A DNA stretch of 64,000 nucleotides. It comes from a candidate division SR1 bacterium. GTDB lineage: Bacteria; Patescibacteriota; JACMRA01. The stretch is taken from NCBI GenBank assembly GCA_014377045.1, contig JACMQI010000005.1, positions 1-64,000 on the forward strand, given 5' to 3'. Both the position numbers and the translations under genes were made by a program. Shown here in pieces: positions 17,872 through 38,399 of the stretch (its first letter is position 1; each line of letters opens with the position of its first letter). The notes beneath the pieces are model-generated. The model searched no databases. It was not told where the DNA came from and saw nothing but the letters and a program-made list of their open reading frames with translations.

Positions 17872-20800
17872 ATGTCAAATGCTAAAAATATACCACTTTC
17901 TTTTGATTTTAAAACAGTAGAAAAAAAATGGCAGGATTATTGGCTCACAAATCACACATATGAAGCTAAAGATGGTGACGTAACTCGTGAAAAAAAGTAT
18001 ATTTTAGTTGAGTTTCCGTTTCCTAGTGGAGCTAGTCTTCATGTAGGTCATGTTTTTCGTTACACTGCGCCAGATATTTACAGTAGATTTTTAAGGCAAA
18101 AAGGGTATAACGTTTTGTTTCCGATGGGCTGGGATGCCTTTGGTCTTCCTGCTGAGGAGTACGCACGCAAAACTGGTCAGAATCCACGTATTACCACAGA
18201 ACAAAATATAGATGGTATCAAACAAAATATACAAAAAATGGGTTATAGTATTGATTGGAATCGTGAGTTTAGCACGACTGATCCTGAATATTATAAGTGG
18301 ACACAGTGGATATTTAAGAAGTTTTATGAGCAGGGACTTGCAACGCAAAAAGATGTTGAACTTTGGTACTGTAAAAACCTAGGTACTGTTTTAGCAAATG
18401 AAGAAGTATATGATAGCCTAAACGGTGAAAAACTATCAGAGCGCGGTGACCATCCAGTAGAAAAAAAGAAGATGAAACAGTGGGTTCTAAAGATGCCAGA
18501 GTATGCTGAGAAGCTTCTTACTGGACTTGAAAACACGCATTTTCCTGAACATATCAAGGCTATGCAGCGAACTTGGATTGGTAAAAGTGAAGGGGTTACA
18601 GTAAACTGGGATTTAGTACCTCGGGACTATATCAAAATGGTCAATAACTATCCCGCATTTCCTTACAATACCGAGTTTGGGGTAGGTGAAAAAGACTTTA
18701 CAAAGATTATTCGTGAGCGATCAACTGCATTTATCCGAATCAAAGGTACTGATAAATATTTGAGTTATATCCAGAACCGATATAATGACAAAAATTGGGT
18801 ATTTTTACCTGGAGGCGGAGTTGATATTGGAGAAACATCGTTACAAGCAGCGATCCGTGAAACAAAGGAAGAGCTTGGCTTGAGTGGTCTCGAATATGTG
18901 GCTGATTTAGGTTCTATCAATGCCTTTGGTCACTGGACTGGGCAAGCACAACACAGTACAGAACATTATTTTTTGCTTGAGGTAAGCATGGATAATATAA
19001 AAATGCGAGTAAAAGCTGAAGTGGACGACGAAAAAGACGAAATGTACGGTCATGTCAGAGCGGTTACCCTGGAACAGTACAAAGCAAATAATTGGCCACA
19101 GCTAAATTATATAATTGAAAATTTAGAAGAATATCTGACAACAGGAAAGATTGATAGGCTTGAGCAACATAATCGTGAGATTGTTATTGGTACCACAAAT
19201 AAGGGAAAAATAGATCGCTGGAAGCATCAGCTAAATATAACAGGAGTCAAACTCGTTTCTGCTGGTGATCTTGGGCTGACCGTAGGAGAGATTGTTGAAA
19301 ATGGAAATAGTGAGTTAGAAAATGCTCGAATAAAGGCAAAAGCTTTTTGGCAAATGGCACAGAAACCCTCTATTAGCGGTGATTCTGGGATTTATCTTGA
19401 GGGCGTTCCAGTTAATGAGCAGCCTAGTCAAAATACAAAACGAGCGGCAGGAGTTGTGGAAACAGATGATGAGGCGATGATATGGCAAAAAATGGTAGAT
19501 TTTTATATTTCGAGAGTCGAAAAATACGGTATAAATGGTGAGTTAAATGCATACTTTTTGGATGTTTTTTCATTATATGACGGATTTAATTTTTATGATG
19601 TAGAAGTCAAGCGATCGATTATAATTACCAATCAAATTACGTATCCAGACCGCAAAGTTTTCCCTCTTTGTAATATCTATAAAGTCCCTAAAAATGGTAA
19701 GTACTACTATGATTTGAGCAGCGAGGAAATGGATGATTTTTTGATAGAATACAAAGAGGCTAGAAACTTACTTTCAAGCTATTTGTTTGACGGTGAAGAT
19801 GCAAGTGGACATAGTAGTATAGTTCAAACTTATACAACCCGTGTTGATACCTTACCTTCGGCCACTTTTGTCGTTGTAGCACCAGAATACTCAGGATTAT
19901 TAGAACTTTCTAGTGACGAATATAAGCTAAGTGTCGCTACCTACATCGAACAAACCAAAGCTAAATCTGAGAGAGAACGTCAGATAAATAAAGAAAAAAC
20001 TGGTGTATTTACAGGTCGTTTTGTAACAAATCCTCTTACCAATGAATTATGTCCAGTATGGGTGACCGATTTTGTTCTTGGTAGTTATGGCACTGGAGCT
20101 GTAATGGGAGATGCACATGATTTGAGAGATGCAGAGCTAGCCCTTAAATACGATATTTATTTGAATGAAAATATAAGTAAAGATGGTGAAAAACGTGAAG
20201 ACTTTGTCGAATTATTGAAGGCTGGTGAAGTATTTATTGAGGATGGTATTCTATACAATAGTGGTGAATTTAGTGCACTAAATAGTGATGAAGCTCGGGA
20301 AAAAATAGCTGAAAAATTACTCGAGATTGGTAAAGGTATGACCAAAACAAATTATCGTATGCGCGATTTTGTCTTTAGTAGGCAACGATACTGGGGTGAG
20401 CCGTTTCCATTTGAATACACCAATAATGGTGAGATAAAAGTAATCAGCGACGATAAGTTACCATTAGTTTTACCAGATTTGGAGGATTTTGAACCAAGTA
20501 AAGATGGTCGATCTCCGTTAGCAAAATCTGACTGGATCAATATACGTGATGAGCAGGGGAGTATAGTTGCTACACATGAGGCTGATACGATGCCAAACTG
20601 GGCTGGGTCGAGCTGGTACTATCTTAGATTTACTGATCCAAAAAATGACGAAGAGTTTGCAAGTGAGGAAAATCTCAAATATTGGCTACCAGTTGATCAC
20701 TATTTTGGAGGAAGTGAGCATACCACACTTCATCTTTTATATTCACGTTTTTGGCATAAGTTCCTTTATGATATGGGTAAAGTGCCTACACCAGAGCCTT

Positions 20801-21525
20801 ATGATTACCGTACAAATGGAGGAATACTGCTCGGTCCTGATGGCTCTAAAATGAGTAAATCTAAAGGAAATGTAATCCAGCCTGATGATAAATTAGATAG
20901 TGTAGGAGCTGACGCACTTCGTATATATATAGCTTTTATTGGTCCTTATGATGCAACTGTTATTTGGCAAGATGGAGGCCTTAAGGCGTGTAAAACATTA
21001 GTAGATAGAATTTGGAATTTACAGAGTAGGGTGTCATTTACCTCCAAAAATGATTTAGCAAATAACAAAAAACTGTATATAGCCTACAATAAGTTTGTAA
21101 AATCTGTTTCAAATCTGCTTGAAGAAATGAAGAATAATGTAGCGGTAGCTGAGATCATGACTTTTACTAATCTAATTCGTGAGACTCCTACTATCCCACT
21201 AGATATTTATGAAGGCTTTATCAAAGTAGTAGCGCCATTTGCACCTCATTTATGCGAAGAGTTGTGGAGTGTGCTAGGCAACAAAACCAGTATAGCATTA
21301 TCAAAATGGCCAACATTCGATCCAGAACTATGTATAGATAATGTCGTTAGATATGCTGTACAAGTCAATGGAAAAGTACGAGCAGACTTTGAGATAGAAG
21401 CAAATGTAGCAGATGTGCAAGTACTTGAAGCCGCAAAACTATCTGTAGAGAAATATCTAGAAGGAAAAACAATAAAGTTTAGTAAGATAATACCTAGAAA
21501 GCTGGTTACTTTAGTTGTTAATTAG
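17872..21525 (+). CDS. leuS: Leucyl-tRNA synthetase with Nudix and Ham1/RdgB-like domains inserted in the editing domain
   Basis: Charges tRNA-Leu. The 1217-residue protein has the class I core: HVGH (57-60), KMSKS (993-997), the SSWYYLRF and GGSEHTTLHLLY segments and a C-terminal tRNA-binding tail. Bacterial LeuRS is usually about 800-870 residues. The excess is one insert of about 400 residues (about 249-648), placed exactly between IGKSEGVTVNWDL and the editing motif YTTRVDT (654-660). The insert holds a perfect Nudix box (315-337: GG.....E.......RE..EE.G) and then a Ham1/RdgB-like domain (about 437-600: TTNKGK 441-446, ENARIKAKA 483-491, SGDSG 502-506). Editing residues Thr660 and Asp753 remain, while the Pro of TTRPDT is Val658. 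The frame is uninterrupted, so this looks like a real, possibly multifunctional enzyme. Confidence 0.93.
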   Translation: MSNAKNIPLSFDFKTVEKKWQDYWLTNHTYEAKDGDVTREKKYILVEFPFPSGASLHVGHVFRYTAPDIYSRFLRQKGYNVLFPMGWDAFGLPAEEYARKTGQNPRITTEQNIDGIKQNIQKMGYSIDWNREFSTTDPEYYKWTQWIFKKFYEQGLATQKDVELWYCKNLGTVLANEEVYDSLNGEKLSERGDHPVEKKKMKQWVLKMPEYAEKLLTGLENTHFPEHIKAMQRTWIGKSEGVTVNWDLVPRDYIKMVNNYPAFPYNTEFGVGEKDFTKIIRERSTAFIRIKGTDKYLSYIQNRYNDKNWVFLPGGGVDIGETSLQAAIRETKEELGLSGLEYVADLGSINAFGHWTGQAQHSTEHYFLLEVSMDNIKMRVKAEVDDEKDEMYGHVRAVTLEQYKANNWPQLNYIIENLEEYLTTGKIDRLEQHNREIVIGTTNKGKIDRWKHQLNITGVKLVSAGDLGLTVGEIVENGNSELENARIKAKAFWQMAQKPSISGDSGIYLEGVPVNEQPSQNTKRAAGVVETDDEAMIWQKMVDFYISRVEKYGINGELNAYFLDVFSLYDGFNFYDVEVKRSIIITNQITYPDRKVFPLCNIYKVPKNGKYYYDLSSEEMDDFLIEYKEARNLLSSYLFDGEDASGHSSIVQTYTTRVDTLPSATFVVVAPEYSGLLELSSDEYKLSVATYIEQTKAKSERERQINKEKTGVFTGRFVTNPLTNELCPVWVTDFVLGSYGTGAVMGDAHDLRDAELALKYDIYLNENISKDGEKREDFVELLKAGEVFIEDGILYNSGEFSALNSDEAREKIAEKLLEIGKGMTKTNYRMRDFVFSRQRYWGEPFPFEYTNNGEIKVISDDKLPLVLPDLEDFEPSKDGRSPLAKSDWINIRDEQGSIVATHEADTMPNWAGSSWYYLRFTDPKNDEEFASEENLKYWLPVDHYFGGSEHTTLHLLYSRFWHKFLYDMGKVPTPEPYDYRTNGGILLGPDGSKMSKSKGNVIQPDDKLDSVGADALRIYIAFIGPYDATVIWQDGGLKACKTLVDRIWNLQSRVSFTSKNDLANNKKLYIAYNKFVKSVSNLLEEMKNNVAVAEIMTFTNLIRETPTIPLDIYEGFIKVVAPFAPHLCEELWSVLGNKTSIALSKWPTFDPELCIDNVVRYAVQVNGKVRADFEIEANVADVQVLEAAKLSVEKYLEGKTIKFSKIIPRKLVTLVVN

Positions 21526-24728: not shown

Positions 24729-25928
24729 ATGGCAAAAGTATTGATTATTATCATAATTTTTAGCACATTTGGAAATTTTTTGTCTAGTCTAGCAGCTAAT
24801 GCTCATGGTTTAGAAGTTGAAGAAACAGATATGGCATTTGTTCAAAACCTTAATCCAAGCGAAAGGATAGCTCAAATAAAAACAAAAACTGAAATCAAAT
24901 CAAGTCAAAATAAAGTTTTACCTTTTTCTCTTGATTTTAAAACTGCAAAACAGTTAGCTTTGGCAAATGAATCTTGGAGATTTCCTTATGTTGCAAAAAC
25001 CCGTATATACGAAACACAGGGTTATAATGGTCCGTATTCTCACCAAGGTGTAAATGCACTTGATCTCTATGCCAACGAAGGTGTTATCGTAGCCGCTAAA
25101 AGTGGAACTGTATCGCTGGTTGAGTTTGGTGGGATACACGATGGTTGGTGTAACTCCAACACAGATTGTTACAATAAGGGTGGTATCTGGCGTGGTAATA
25201 ATATCATAATTAACCATAGCGATGGTTCTAGTTCGTACTATCTTCATCTCAAGCCAGGGTCTCTTAAAGCAGGAATTAGTAATGGACAATACATAGAACA
25301 AGGCACTTCTCTTGCTATCCAAGGTTCTACAGGATATACTTGCAACATTTCATGTACCGAACCCTATTCTCATCTGCATTTTCAAGTAAATAAAAATGGT
25401 ATTTCTATTCCTACACCTTTTGATGATTGTAATTATTTAGGCAATCAATGTGACTCAAGTGGTATACCATTTCCAGATAATTTTTATAGTTCTACCAACT
25501 ATCCTCCCGGCTATTCGGTAAATATACAAGACAAAAATATCTCGCTCTACGCGGGTAATTTCAGTGCATTATTATTTGGTATCAATCGTGGTGATAGTTT
25601 ATATACTGGTGGTAAGGACGAAAATATAACTTCAAAATGGACCTGGCTTCCTTCCGGTGAAATTCGTGGTCTAAATGATTGGTGCTTATCATCAGGTGAT
25701 GGTTCAAATATAGTTGTAAGTGATTGTAATGGAAAAGATGAGCAAAAATGGATGCACACTAACAATAAAACTATAATAAATAAGCAAAATGGCCTTTGCT
25801 GGGATAGCGAGCGTGGTGACACTTATCGATCTAGAGTTTACCTTTTCAATTGTCATGGTGGAAGGAATCAACAGTGGAGGTATGGTAATGAAGGTTATCC
25901 AATAGAAAAATTAAATGAAAATCAGTAA
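24729..25928 (+). CDS. Secreted LytM (M23) peptidase fused to a ricin-type lectin domain
   Basis: 399 residues: a signal peptide (1-25), a linker, an M23 domain (about 85-235) with His105, Asp112, His173 and HLHF (His215 and His217), then a ricin-B-like beta-trefoil (about 270-390) with WCLSS, DEQKW and NQQW repeats of the QxW type. M23 enzymes cut peptide cross-links in murein; the trefoil would bind a sugar on the target surface. The pairing points to an enzyme acting outside the cell on a wall or on a glycan-coated neighbour. Several Cys could form disulfides. It overlaps the next gene by 14 bp. Confidence 0.9.
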   Translation: MAKVLIIIIIFSTFGNFLSSLAANAHGLEVEETDMAFVQNLNPSERIAQIKTKTEIKSSQNKVLPFSLDFKTAKQLALANESWRFPYVAKTRIYETQGYNGPYSHQGVNALDLYANEGVIVAAKSGTVSLVEFGGIHDGWCNSNTDCYNKGGIWRGNNIIINHSDGSSSYYLHLKPGSLKAGISNGQYIEQGTSLAIQGSTGYTCNISCTEPYSHLHFQVNKNGISIPTPFDDCNYLGNQCDSSGIPFPDNFYSSTNYPPGYSVNIQDKNISLYAGNFSALLFGINRGDSLYTGGKDENITSKWTWLPSGEIRGLNDWCLSSGDGSNIVVSDCNGKDEQKWMHTNNKTIINKQNGLCWDSERGDTYRSRVYLFNCHGGRNQQWRYGNEGYPIEKLNENQ

Positions 25929-33974: not shown

Positions 33975-36900
33975 TTAGAAAGTAGCGAGTGCGTCTTCAA
34001 AAGCTTTCTGGTATTGATCTAGTTTACCTGTAGACTTAAGATTATTAATATAGTTTGCCAAATCATTGCTATTATGACCATCTCCTTCATTTGGATAATC
34101 TTTACAGAATTTAATCAAATCATTACTTACCGATTTATCCATTCGTGATAAGCAAAGATATGTAAATGAATTATATGAATAACTTCTACTAATGCTTCCG
34201 TCCATTGTATAAGACACAAATCGTAAAATTTGAGTTAGTGTATTTTCAAAGTTTGTAATATTTTTTAAGCTATTTGCTGTATTGGATTCCAATATTGTAA
34301 GTTCGATTGATTTTCGAGGAACATTTAAGCCCATTTGATTTTTAAATATATTTTTTCCATATCCCCAATTAGCTTTAGTAAAATCATACACCTCTTTTGC
34401 AATGGCTTCTTTTTTCTTTGGATCAGTAAATACTTCTTGTATAAGTTTACTTGCAGCATCAGTATATGATTGTACATTAAATTCACGCTTTTCGGCTATA
34501 TCTACCCGCTCTACAACTTTAATATTTTGAGTTATAGTTTCAAAATCTCCACTTGCAAATTTATTCAATATCTCCTTAATCATAGGTGCAGTTGTATTAT
34601 AGAATGGCGGAGTAATACTTTTGCCCGCAATTGCATTTCGCTTATTATAAGTTTCAACAATGTGCTTAGGTAATTGATTTATTATTTCTTCAACAATGTC
34701 TTGGCCACTTATACCATTTGCTTTTTTAGCCGCATTAATATGATCTCTCAAGTCGAACAAGCCATTACATAACTGTTGATTATTAAAGTTAGCAAATAAT
34801 CCAAGTAATTTTTGCGCATCACTCTGTAAATCTGGTTTTTTTTCAGCTTCTGAAGCTTCAGCAGTTTTTTCCTTAACTACCAAGTTACTTACTTGTTTAA
34901 GATTGTCTACCTCAGGACTTGTATTGGTAGGAATAGTAGTCTCCTCAGCGCTTTTTTCTGCTTCATAATTAGTTACTTCAGGTGCTATATTAATATCATT
35001 CTCATTATGTATATCTAGATCTTTGTACTTTTCTAAAACCTTTATAATAGAGTCAGACAACTGACCATATCCAATCGTACTTTTCCATGATCTTCTATTT
35101 TCTGGCATTGTAAGTCTTACTAATCCTAGAGCTGTATAACCAGATTCAGTACCTATTTCTTCTAATAAACCACCACCAGTTATCTCTTGGTCATTATAAT
35201 TTTTTATCATACTCTGCATATTGGCACAAAATATATCAAAAACTAGTTCACTGTATTCAGACTTAGGAACACTTCTAGACTCCTGAAAGATAATTTCAGA
35301 CAACTTCTGGGATTCACGTTTTATAAAGCCCAGTCTTTTAGTTTCTTCTGAACCCACTGGATCAATGTTTTCAGATGAATTAACTGATGACTCTGGTATA
35401 TTTGGATCTTTTTCAACTGGAATAAGTTGACCTGATAGCTCAGATAATACTTCAAGAGCAGCTCGGCTGAATTCTTCAACTCTCTCTGGGTGATTTTGCA
35501 TCCAGCTATCTCTCACTTTTTTCTCTCCAATACCATTTATTGAAAAAGAGTTTTTGACTTTATCTTGAATGAGGTTATAAATATTTTCTCCTTTACCTAC
35601 TTTATTATCATAATCATTAATAAAATCATTCATTTTGATACCAAAGGATCTGAATACTACCTCATTTAAGATTAAATCATGTGAATCATAATCTGAATTA
35701 ATACTCTTCAATAGCTTTATAGAAAAATCCTGTAAATATTGTGTTCTTCGAGCTTCAATAGTATTTAAATTATTATCAGGTTCGTTCGTTTCAGATACAT
35801 TTAAAACAACTGGCATCGTAGTTTTTCCAGCCAATTTCTGCAAAGTTTTTCTATACGATTCAACCATAGCTGTGATAGCCCAAGGCTCCATTTTTGATCT
35901 ATCAACGTCACGAATCTTAAAACTCTCAGGTAGATCAGTAGCTATTTCATCAAATAAGTTTGGACCTGTAATACCCTCATCTTCAAAATTTTGTATAATA
36001 CCACTTCTACTAGCTTTCATATGTTCGAAAGTTTCTTGATTTCCTAGATTAGCAACTACTAAAAGTAAATTATTAGCTTCATTTTTTAGATAATTTACTC
36101 TATTTGCTTCATCTTCCTGATCTATATTATTTCCTAAATCAGACATTTCTTCCATTATTTTTGTACCAGAATATTTTTCTAGTACCTTTATAGAGGCTTC
36201 TGAAAATGTATTTATACCATCTTTACCCCATTTCATACGAACGGTATTATCGCCGATTAAACTAAAATCAAAACCTTTGGGTAATTCATTTTGAATTTCA
36301 TCGAGCAAATTATTTCCTTCTCCACCCCCAATAATAAATCCATTTTGCATACCCTGAAGCATATAACCTACTTGCATGAATACAACTTCGTTTAAAGTCG
36401 TTCCTGGATGAGCAGCAGATAATTGAAATTTTATAGAACTTATAAGTTCTAAAGCTTGATTTTTAATTATTTCCACTCGTTTTGCTTCAGTTTCTTGAGG
36501 TTTTGAAATTTTTTCTGCAATCTGATGAGCTTTGAGCATACCATAATCGATAACAGATATTTTATATTGCCCTTTCGAATCAACACCGAGCTTTATTCCT
36601 ATTTTTCTACATTTTTCTACTTCATCTGCTATTATACTGACAATAAGGGTATCCTTGGACTTATCTCTTATGCTATTTGCATCTACACCGTCATTTATAA
36701 ATCTAATAGCATCAATATTTGCTTTAAGATGTTCGATAGCTTGTTGGGTTTCTTGTTGAATAAATAAATTATTATCAGAAACACTTTTATTTGATATAAG
36801 TTCTTCGAGTTCTTTTGCAATTCTATTACTAAATAGAGCTGTATTTTCAGTTTCTATTTGATCAGGTGTCAACGGTACACTAGGTTGCTGATTAGGTGCT

Positions 36901-38399
36901 TGTTCAGGATCTGGATTTACTATACCTGATGGATCAGGTGCCTGCTGTGGAGTAGACGGATTAGGAACTCCATTGCTAGCGCTCACATTAGGCTGATCTG
37001 GTATATTAATTGGTATGATAGGAGTTACAGGATTGGGCGTGCTACTACCTTCTTCAAAATATTTAAAATTTTTATCGTTTTCATGTAGTTCATAAAAATA
37101 TATATTTTTTCGCCATTTTTGACCTTCAATTTCAAACAGCTCTGGAATATCATCTCCTGGAAATATTTGTCCACTTTGAATTAAGTAGGCGTAAAGGGTA
37201 CTTATGCTTTCATCAACGAACTTTTCAAGTTTTTGTTTATCCAATTTTTTGCCAGCCGTGTTTGCGAGGGTATGTTCAACTATTTTTTTTTGAAGTTTTG
37301 AAATAGATTTTTTAGTTTGATTTTGACCTGCTTCATATTTTTCAGGCTTTTGAAATAGCCGATTTTTAGACATTTTACCAAGAACAGTAGTTATACCACC
37401 TGAAAGTGCAGAGAGTCCAGTGGCAATAGTTCCTGCAGAACCTCCAGCTCCAGCAAGTCCCATTGAGCCAAATGTTCCTATGGAACCTGATCCAAAAGCC
37501 GAAGCAGCAACACCAGTACCTGCTATATATGTACCATTTACAATGCCTCCAGCAAGTCCCATTGCTCCAAGGGCAGAAAGTATTACAGGAGCAGAAACAT
37601 ACATAGTAGTGCCAGCAGCAACCCCGGTGGCAATTAATAACACTTTGTTTTCTATTGCCGCATCACCGACAGCTTTCCAATTTATTTTTCTTGGGTCTGC
37701 ATTTTCAAACCAACTTTTAATTTTGGCAAAAGTTTCTCGCTTTTGAGCTGGGCTCATATTTTCTAATGTTTGCACACCCTGTTCGCGATTTTTCATCAAA
37801 TTTATACTTACCTCTTGTCTTTGAGTCGTAAGAGGGCTTTGTGGTTCTTGTGTCTCACCCTCTGGTTCAGAATTTACTAGACTTAAACTTTCGTCAGGCT
37901 TGACCTGCTTGCTAAATAAATTTTTAATAAATGGGATATTTTTTATTACCTCTCCCATTTTTGCCATACTGTTAGAAATAGTACTTAGCTCTTTGTTAGA
38001 TTTTTCGAAATTTGGAGCTTCTTTTTTTTGTTCTAAATATTCGTTCAACTCTCCTACTCTTTTGGAAAAAAATATTCCCTCTTGTTTTTTAATTTCTTTT
38101 TTATCATCAGATAAAGCCTCATAGTCATCACCATACTCTTTTTGTACTCTAGTTTTTTCTTCTTCTTGATAAATCTCAATTGTTAACTGAATATCATAAT
38201 TCTCCCAACCATTTATATAATTTTTAATTTCTTCTATAGTAATAGCTGGAGTTTTCATTTTTTTAACAGCATTGATCAAACCGCCAGGTTTCATTTTTTC
38301 TGGATTTTTAATAGAGCTTATTTCTTCTGATGGATCGACTATGTTACCTTCTTTTCCTTGATTAAATGATTTACCGAATTTATTAGAAATATTATTCAT
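33975..38399 (-). CDS. Giant protein with repeated helical modules and a Gly/Ala-rich hydrophobic segment
   Basis: 1474 residues, unrecognised. Residues 1-240 are charged and helical. Residues 250-335 are Gly/Ala-rich and hydrophobic, able to form two or more membrane hairpins. A Pro/Asn/Gln-rich spacer spans about 450-540. From about 540 to 1260 at least five diverged copies of a 120-160-residue module follow. Each has a Gly-rich lead, an (N)LxxEIxxxLPxxF core (near 690, 811, 934, 1073 and 1231) and, in most, a VLExxSG-type helix. A separate helical C-terminal domain ends in FEDALATF. The gene is preceded 24 bp upstream by a small helical protein gene. There is no signal peptide. Function unknown; a scaffold, adhesin-like or secreted effector role are all open. 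Confidence 0.75.
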   Translation of the reverse strand: MNNISNKFGKSFNQGKEGNIVDPSEEISSIKNPEKMKPGGLINAVKKMKTPAITIEEIKNYINGWENYDIQLTIEIYQEEEKTRVQKEYGDDYEALSDDKKEIKKQEGIFFSKRVGELNEYLEQKKEAPNFEKSNKELSTISNSMAKMGEVIKNIPFIKNLFSKQVKPDESLSLVNSEPEGETQEPQSPLTTQRQEVSINLMKNREQGVQTLENMSPAQKRETFAKIKSWFENADPRKINWKAVGDAAIENKVLLIATGVAAGTTMYVSAPVILSALGAMGLAGGIVNGTYIAGTGVAASAFGSGSIGTFGSMGLAGAGGSAGTIATGLSALSGGITTVLGKMSKNRLFQKPEKYEAGQNQTKKSISKLQKKIVEHTLANTAGKKLDKQKLEKFVDESISTLYAYLIQSGQIFPGDDIPELFEIEGQKWRKNIYFYELHENDKNFKYFEEGSSTPNPVTPIIPINIPDQPNVSASNGVPNPSTPQQAPDPSGIVNPDPEQAPNQQPSVPLTPDQIETENTALFSNRIAKELEELISNKSVSDNNLFIQQETQQAIEHLKANIDAIRFINDGVDANSIRDKSKDTLIVSIIADEVEKCRKIGIKLGVDSKGQYKISVIDYGMLKAHQIAEKISKPQETEAKRVEIIKNQALELISSIKFQLSAAHPGTTLNEVVFMQVGYMLQGMQNGFIIGGGEGNNLLDEIQNELPKGFDFSLIGDNTVRMKWGKDGINTFSEASIKVLEKYSGTKIMEEMSDLGNNIDQEDEANRVNYLKNEANNLLLVVANLGNQETFEHMKASRSGIIQNFEDEGITGPNLFDEIATDLPESFKIRDVDRSKMEPWAITAMVESYRKTLQKLAGKTTMPVVLNVSETNEPDNNLNTIEARRTQYLQDFSIKLLKSINSDYDSHDLILNEVVFRSFGIKMNDFINDYDNKVGKGENIYNLIQDKVKNSFSINGIGEKKVRDSWMQNHPERVEEFSRAALEVLSELSGQLIPVEKDPNIPESSVNSSENIDPVGSEETKRLGFIKRESQKLSEIIFQESRSVPKSEYSELVFDIFCANMQSMIKNYNDQEITGGGLLEEIGTESGYTALGLVRLTMPENRRSWKSTIGYGQLSDSIIKVLEKYKDLDIHNENDINIAPEVTNYEAEKSAEETTIPTNTSPEVDNLKQVSNLVVKEKTAEASEAEKKPDLQSDAQKLLGLFANFNNQQLCNGLFDLRDHINAAKKANGISGQDIVEEIINQLPKHIVETYNKRNAIAGKSITPPFYNTTAPMIKEILNKFASGDFETITQNIKVVERVDIAEKREFNVQSYTDAASKLIQEVFTDPKKKEAIAKEVYDFTKANWGYGKNIFKNQMGLNVPRKSIELTILESNTANSLKNITNFENTLTQILRFVSYTMDGSISRSYSYNSFTYLCLSRMDKSVSNDLIKFCKDYPNEGDGHNSNDLANYINNLKSTGKLDQYQKAFEDALATF

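Follow-up and report, generated by a model that had tools for sequence, protein, structure and literature searches.

Between the catalytic half and the editing domain of a leucyl-tRNA synthetase (LeuRS), a candidate division SR1 bacterium encodes some 400 additional residues. This locus raises the question of whether such a protein is real, which enzymes have been built into it, and whether they serve the synthetase that carries them. The window, a contig stretch of 64,000 nucleotides, belongs to a genome (hereafter G000) of 1.04 Mb distributed over 42 contigs and 86% complete. The features discussed below are collected in Table 1.

Table 1. Coordinates of leuS, its insert and the embedded motifs in the window
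Feature	Residues	Position	Strand	Basis
leuS (LeuRS ORF)	1,217 aa + stop	17872..21525	+	no internal stops; HVGH, KMSKS
LeuRS N-terminal catalytic half	1-247	17872..18612	+	PF00133 match, family alignment; stops right after IGKSEGVTVNWD
In-frame insert (397 residues)	248-644	18613..19803	+	alignment with insert-free G005 LeuRS; G001 homologue
Nudix domain	300-412	18769..19107	+	PF00293, E 2.1e-13
Nudix box GGVDIGETSLQAAIRETKEELGL, intact	315-337	18814..18882	+	also intact in G001
Ham1-like domain	434-642	19171..19797	+	PF01725, E 1.1e-8; alignment with G005 stand-alone and G001 embedded copies
Ham1 motif TTNKGK (conserved Lys)		19192..19209	+	motif alignment
Ham1 motif ENARIKAKA		19318..19344	+	motif alignment
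Ham1 motif SGDSG (catalytic Asp region)		19375..19389	+	motif alignment
FPLCNIY, subfamily motif where RdgB has FGYDPxF		19660..19680	+	motif alignment
LeuRS CP1 editing domain, opens with TTRVDT	648-816	19813..20319	+	PF13603, E 8.2e-41
Shortened editing-pocket loop GTGAVMGDAHDLRD, 1 residue shorter than in other relatives		20089..20130	+	motif comparison

A LeuRS with an insert at the CP1 entry

The host enzyme is the single LeuRS of its genome and is recognised by TIGR00396 (leuS_bact) with 832 bits, against a curated cut-off of 548. Its signatures are intact: HIGH and KMSKS are present as HVGH and KMSKS, and the TTRxDT and HDxRD of the editing domain as TTRVDT and HDLRD. It thus shares with bacterial LeuRS, such as that of Thermus thermophilus (PDB 1h3n), the catalytic, editing and anticodon-binding parts, but differs by carrying two enzymes inserted at the CP1 entry and by a shorter editing-pocket loop. 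This loop follows the pattern GTGAxMxVPAHDxRD, and among 61 LeuRS matched by this motif, only those of G000 and G001, a genome of another genus in the same family, have 14 residues, one being missing before HD. Elsewhere in the window, a peptidase M23 and ricin-type lectin protein of 399 aa is encoded at 24729-25928, and an ORF of 1,474 aa lacking any Pfam match lies on the minus strand at 33975-38399.

The initial annotation had read about 400 residues inserted in an unbroken frame between IGKSEGV and TTRVDT, with a very clean joint in CP1, and the alignment supports this, the joint lying after IGKSEG and the catalytic motifs being kept. When compared with the insert-free LeuRS of G005, from the same family, the insert falls exactly between IGKSEGVTVNWD and TTRVDT, and alignment of the G005 enzyme with 1h3n places this site in the loop right before TTRPDT, that is, at the CP1 entry. 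A homologous double insert with the same junctions is present in G001, with 44% identity over the insert. The two share a linker, WDLVPxxYIxxxNNYPxF, past the first joint, and the sequences preceding TTRVDT are also homologous. The leuS gene of G001 is split over two contigs and contains two compensating indels, hence it demonstrates homology and not an intact ORF. The GC content of the insert (0.385/0.367) matches that of the host gene (0.375/0.370), which argues that the insertion is not recent. A fusion of LeuRS to nucleotide-hydrolase genes by chimeric assembly can be given practically no weight, since an independent genome carries the homologous insert with the same linkers and junctions, and analogous LeuRS inserts occur in dozens of genomes. 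Scanning the genome-contig collection with the window insert itself returned no relative.

The embedded Nudix and Ham1-like domains

Both domains proposed for the insert were recovered by profile search, flanked by LeuRS domains. The Nudix box announced at residues 315-337 lies inside the PF00293 match and follows the strict pattern Gx5Ex7REUxEExGU from residue 315 (GGVDIGETSLQAAIRETKEELG). The domain therefore has the intact 23-residue box of Nudix hydrolases, but it is embedded in LeuRS and resembles every solved Nudix structure only weakly, so that no substrate class is assignable; its best PDB match is an Ap4A hydrolase, with a weak score (E 0.0015).

With regard to the second domain, the motifs TTNKGK, ENARIKAKA and SGDSG occur in the order initially reported, and the N-terminal catalytic motifs (Lys, Glu, ENAxxKA, D[ST]G) are all present. 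The PF01725 Ham1p_like match, above the family cut-off, spans residues 437-536 and covers only the first 95 of the 186 profile columns; the N-terminal half matches known profiles, and the C-terminal half is divergent. In this latter half, the base-recognition motif FGYDPxF is absent, FPLCNIY standing in its place, as is the SHR motif near the C-terminus, and the domain misses the TIGR00042 RdgB equivalog cut-off, with 27 bits against 145. The initial assignment to a Ham1/RdgB-type NTP pyrophosphatase consequently holds for the Ham1 superfamily and finds no support as to RdgB function, a canonical ITPase identity being ruled out by the motifs and the cut-off and ITP/XTP cleaning being at most a putative activity. 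TTNxxK, the acidic residue, ENAxxKA and D[ST]G are retained in the embedded domains and in part of the stand-alone copies, as in the RdgB/HAM1 ITP pyrophosphatase (PDB 1k7k). Unlike this enzyme, these proteins have neither FGYDPxF nor SHR, and instead have P[LM]xN[IL]Y...GK in common. By these sequence criteria, they form a subfamily of the Ham1 superfamily that is distinct from RdgB.

Free genes of this subfamily also exist. In G005, a stand-alone copy with 42% identity to the embedded domain lies directly upstream of the insert-free leuS, and others are found in further genomes of the phylum, as well as on phage- and viral-collection contigs that look bacterial. A match in phage record MT837823 belongs to the latter, its DNA, with transporter and phosphodiesterase-like ORFs, looking bacterial. 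The viral-contig scan gave one stand-alone relative, on an IMG/VR contig (L257, 70-4627) where HAD, Nudix and Ham1-like genes lie close together between two serine recombinases. The proximity of rdgB and leuS in Clostridia was set aside as functional evidence, being explained by the smc-ftsY-rdgB-yhbY-nadD-yqeK-rsfS-leuS cluster. The window genome has a canonical rdgB-like sequence (C33:6424-6957, minus strand; L190) with five in-frame stops, and the embedded domain may therefore be the only Ham1-type protein of this incomplete genome. Structure prediction by AF2 gave a pLDDT of 30 for the insert as a single sequence, and of 50 for the Ham1 part when six Clostridia RdgB rows were supplied; the best Foldseek matches of the latter are RdgB/ITPase, towards which the input alignment steers the model.

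Embedded enzymes across LeuRS and IleRS of the phylum

Whether other CPR LeuRS carry inserts at the same point, a search suggested at the outset, receives a clear yes. LeuRS was detected in 359 of the 380 genomes of the phylum, and 84 were fetched and aligned, picked mostly for excess length, the frequencies given here being lower bounds. With a threshold of at least 55 aa and positions in G005 numbering, inserts occupy five sites, namely 221, 251 (that of the window), 380, 465 and 545, all in CP1 or the zinc region. Thirty-six genomes, including G001, have an insert at site 251 and 34 at site 380. The commonest kind at 251 is an RBBP9/YdeN-like serine (alpha/beta) hydrolase, also encountered at 465, 221 and 380, whereas Nudix is the commonest at 380 and is also found at 221, 251 and, in G002, 465. 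Ham1-like domains occur in the LeuRS of four separate lineages, at site 251 in G000/G001, G008, G280 and G364, and additionally at 465 in G008. Further kinds identified by profile are HAD, nucleotidyltransferase (PF10706), ASCH, methyltransferase, IS200-type transposase and two unclassified ones. The loop used in the window is usually filled in relatives by a serine hydrolase, and sometimes by a HAD, ASCH or transposase domain. The identical loop of G002, of the same family, thus contains an RBBP9/YdeN-type hydrolase (PF06821), to which the window insert is unrelated in fold and chemistry.

Several individual proteins deserve description. The LeuRS of G008 (L032, 677-6061; 1,795 aa) has four occupied sites, with HAD + Ham1, Nudix, another Ham1 and a nucleotidyltransferase-like domain. 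IS200-like (Y1_Tnp) transposase domains lie in-frame inside the LeuRS of G267 and G334 (L080, L077), and the open frames of G171 and G328 (L066, L097) reach approximately 450-525 aa upstream of the core, representing candidate N-terminal domains.

A tree built from the core columns of LeuRS requires no fewer than 23 state changes at site 251, 25 at 380 and 8 at 465, and insert content differs even between two members of one genus (G058 and G255). In this phylum, five loops of LeuRS have therefore acquired, lost and swapped enzyme domains time and again. A scan of genome contigs with a LeuRS alignment found long inserts in none of 80 named, mostly non-CPR loci, in which no open frame exceeds 923 aa.

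Such turnover could be taken for tolerated genomic debris, where small mobile genes insert in-frame into loops that accommodate them, and are retained for structural reasons or for none. The in-frame transposase domains, located at the same site in their two LeuRS, would fit this explanation, as would the divergence within one genus and the gene cluster between serine recombinases on L257. We nonetheless find it improbable, since the window insert has an unbroken frame and a conserved counterpart in G001, with a base composition that speaks against recent arrival. The main argument against it is the near-invariance of the catalytic residues. Among 29 embedded Nudix domains, with a mean pairwise identity of 33%, the key Glu in the box never varies (29/29), and the next two are kept in 27/29 and 28/29; among 36 embedded hydrolases (35% mean identity), the nucleophilic Ser is found in all 36 and the His in 35. 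In both G000 and G001, the Nudix box and the N-terminal catalytic half of Ham1 are intact. Near-invariance at 33-35% mean identity suggests that the activity of the embedded domains is under selection.

IleRS was used as a control. In a survey of 145 genomes, roughly 21 IleRS frames are longer than 1,120 aa and show a split match. An RHG-type histidine phosphatase domain is present in all 12 of those fetched; in 11, it occupies the loop following SRNRFWG, which is the zinc-region counterpart of LeuRS site 465. Pfam His_Phos_1 was confirmed on three of these inserts. Among these IleRS (L241-L251, L253), those of G092 and G106 have tandem histidine phosphatases, and that of G049 combines GNAT with a histidine phosphatase. 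The presence of phosphatases in IleRS indicates that the decoration is special neither to LeuRS nor to nucleotide sanitation. An IleRS with an embedded N-acetyltransferase (NCBIfam NF040702) is likewise a class I synthetase into which a small catalytic domain has been built, but there the synthetase and the enzyme are others, and the recurrent multi-site pattern of this phylum is not seen.

What the embedded enzymes may do

The best reading of these data is LeuRS as a chassis for predicted-active, largely autonomous accessory hydrolases. For the window protein, with its two-enzyme architecture, conserved in a second genus, and its intact catalytic motifs, we place about even confidence in a working LeuRS that carries the tandem Nudix and Ham1-like pair in a CP1 loop, as a passenger that folds on its own. 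The pair, set in the loop that separates the first strands of the editing domain, would fold on the CP1 surface, and both domains would cleave pyrophosphate-type bonds of small nucleotides. Judging from sequence, NDP-X or NpnN are the predicted substrates of the Nudix domain, and the Ham1-like domain would act on a nucleotide that is probably not that of RdgB. LeuRS would mainly provide a carrier that is always expressed, and its passengers would operate largely independently of aminoacylation. The role in LeuRS-specific ATP or Ap4A quality that the initial annotation had envisaged is not upheld by the comparison, given the serine hydrolases that mostly fill the relatives' loop, the HAD, ASCH and transposase domains sometimes found there, and the phosphatases of IleRS. 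This variety points to a general chassis rather than to a nucleotide-sanitising synthetase as such.

A closer coupling to the host reaction seems unlikely to us. The embedded enzymes would then act on by-products or contaminants of LeuRS (Ap4A, related dinucleotides, damaged or non-canonical ATP), being placed in CP1 for proximity, and the alpha/beta hydrolases of the relatives would have aminoacyl esters, or a related product, as their substrate. The confinement of every insert to CP1 or the zinc region is consistent with this, as are the prevalence of Nudix at site 380 with its recurrence at three other sites, and the Ap4A hydrolase match of the Nudix part, weak as it is. The recurrence of the same domain families at different loops could reflect an interaction with the LeuRS reaction. 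Furthermore, the editing loop is altered in exactly the two LeuRS bearing the Nudix + Ham1 insert, which hints at a coupling with editing, though as a single evolutionary event. However, methyltransferase, HAD, transposase and ASCH domains have no common LeuRS by-product, histidine phosphatases are found in IleRS, and the nearest relatives manage without the insert.

A defence role against synthetase inhibitors is speculative and, in our estimate, quite unlikely. Embedded hydrolases or transferases would protect their own host enzyme by destroying or modifying nucleotide-like inhibitors of LeuRS or IleRS, Trojan-horse adenylate mimics of the agrocin 84 / TM84 type. TM84 is described in its report as a natural inhibitor of LeuRS (PMC5059758). 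Folds typical of drug-modifying enzymes are indeed embedded (PF10706 nucleotidyltransferase, GNAT, serine hydrolase, phosphatase), the rapid turnover at insert sites fits an arms race, and IleRS with a GNAT domain already has its own NCBIfam entry; this support is nevertheless all indirect. Against it, we know of no inhibitor or producer for these bacteria, and the recurrent Nudix and RBBP9-like families are not, to our knowledge, resistance enzymes.

Domain insertion in synthetases is already known. In a 2026 survey of domain insertions, the LeuRS editing domain counts solely among the inserted modules, and no case of it acting as host is recorded (PMC13114784). Our literature search yielded no account of LeuRS with internal Nudix, Ham1 or hydrolase domains, in keeping with the initial statement that no described enzyme of this composition was known, though database copies may exist, nor of whole enzymes swapped in and out of the same synthetase loops with their active sites preserved. 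The surprising part is this recurrent multi-site exchange, as an enzyme-bearing class I synthetase is in itself already known from IleRS with GNAT.

Beyond the chassis reading of the window protein, we tentatively propose, as a possibility short of probable, that LeuRS and IleRS of this phylum are evolving platforms. Defined surface loops around their editing and zinc regions would repeatedly take up whole catalytic domains that form a second, exchangeable layer of chemistry next to the site of tRNA charging, for by-product clean-up or inhibitor destruction, the Nudix + Ham1 pair being one instance. The inserts represent a natural experiment on the origin and persistence of fusions, and they point protein engineers directly to permissive loops. 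They also call for care in annotation, because some hydrolases in these genomes may be synthetases, and vice versa. Finally, they provide testable hints at what LeuRS and IleRS may need nearby in streamlined bacteria, be it nucleotide clean-up, ester hydrolysis or the removal of inhibitors.
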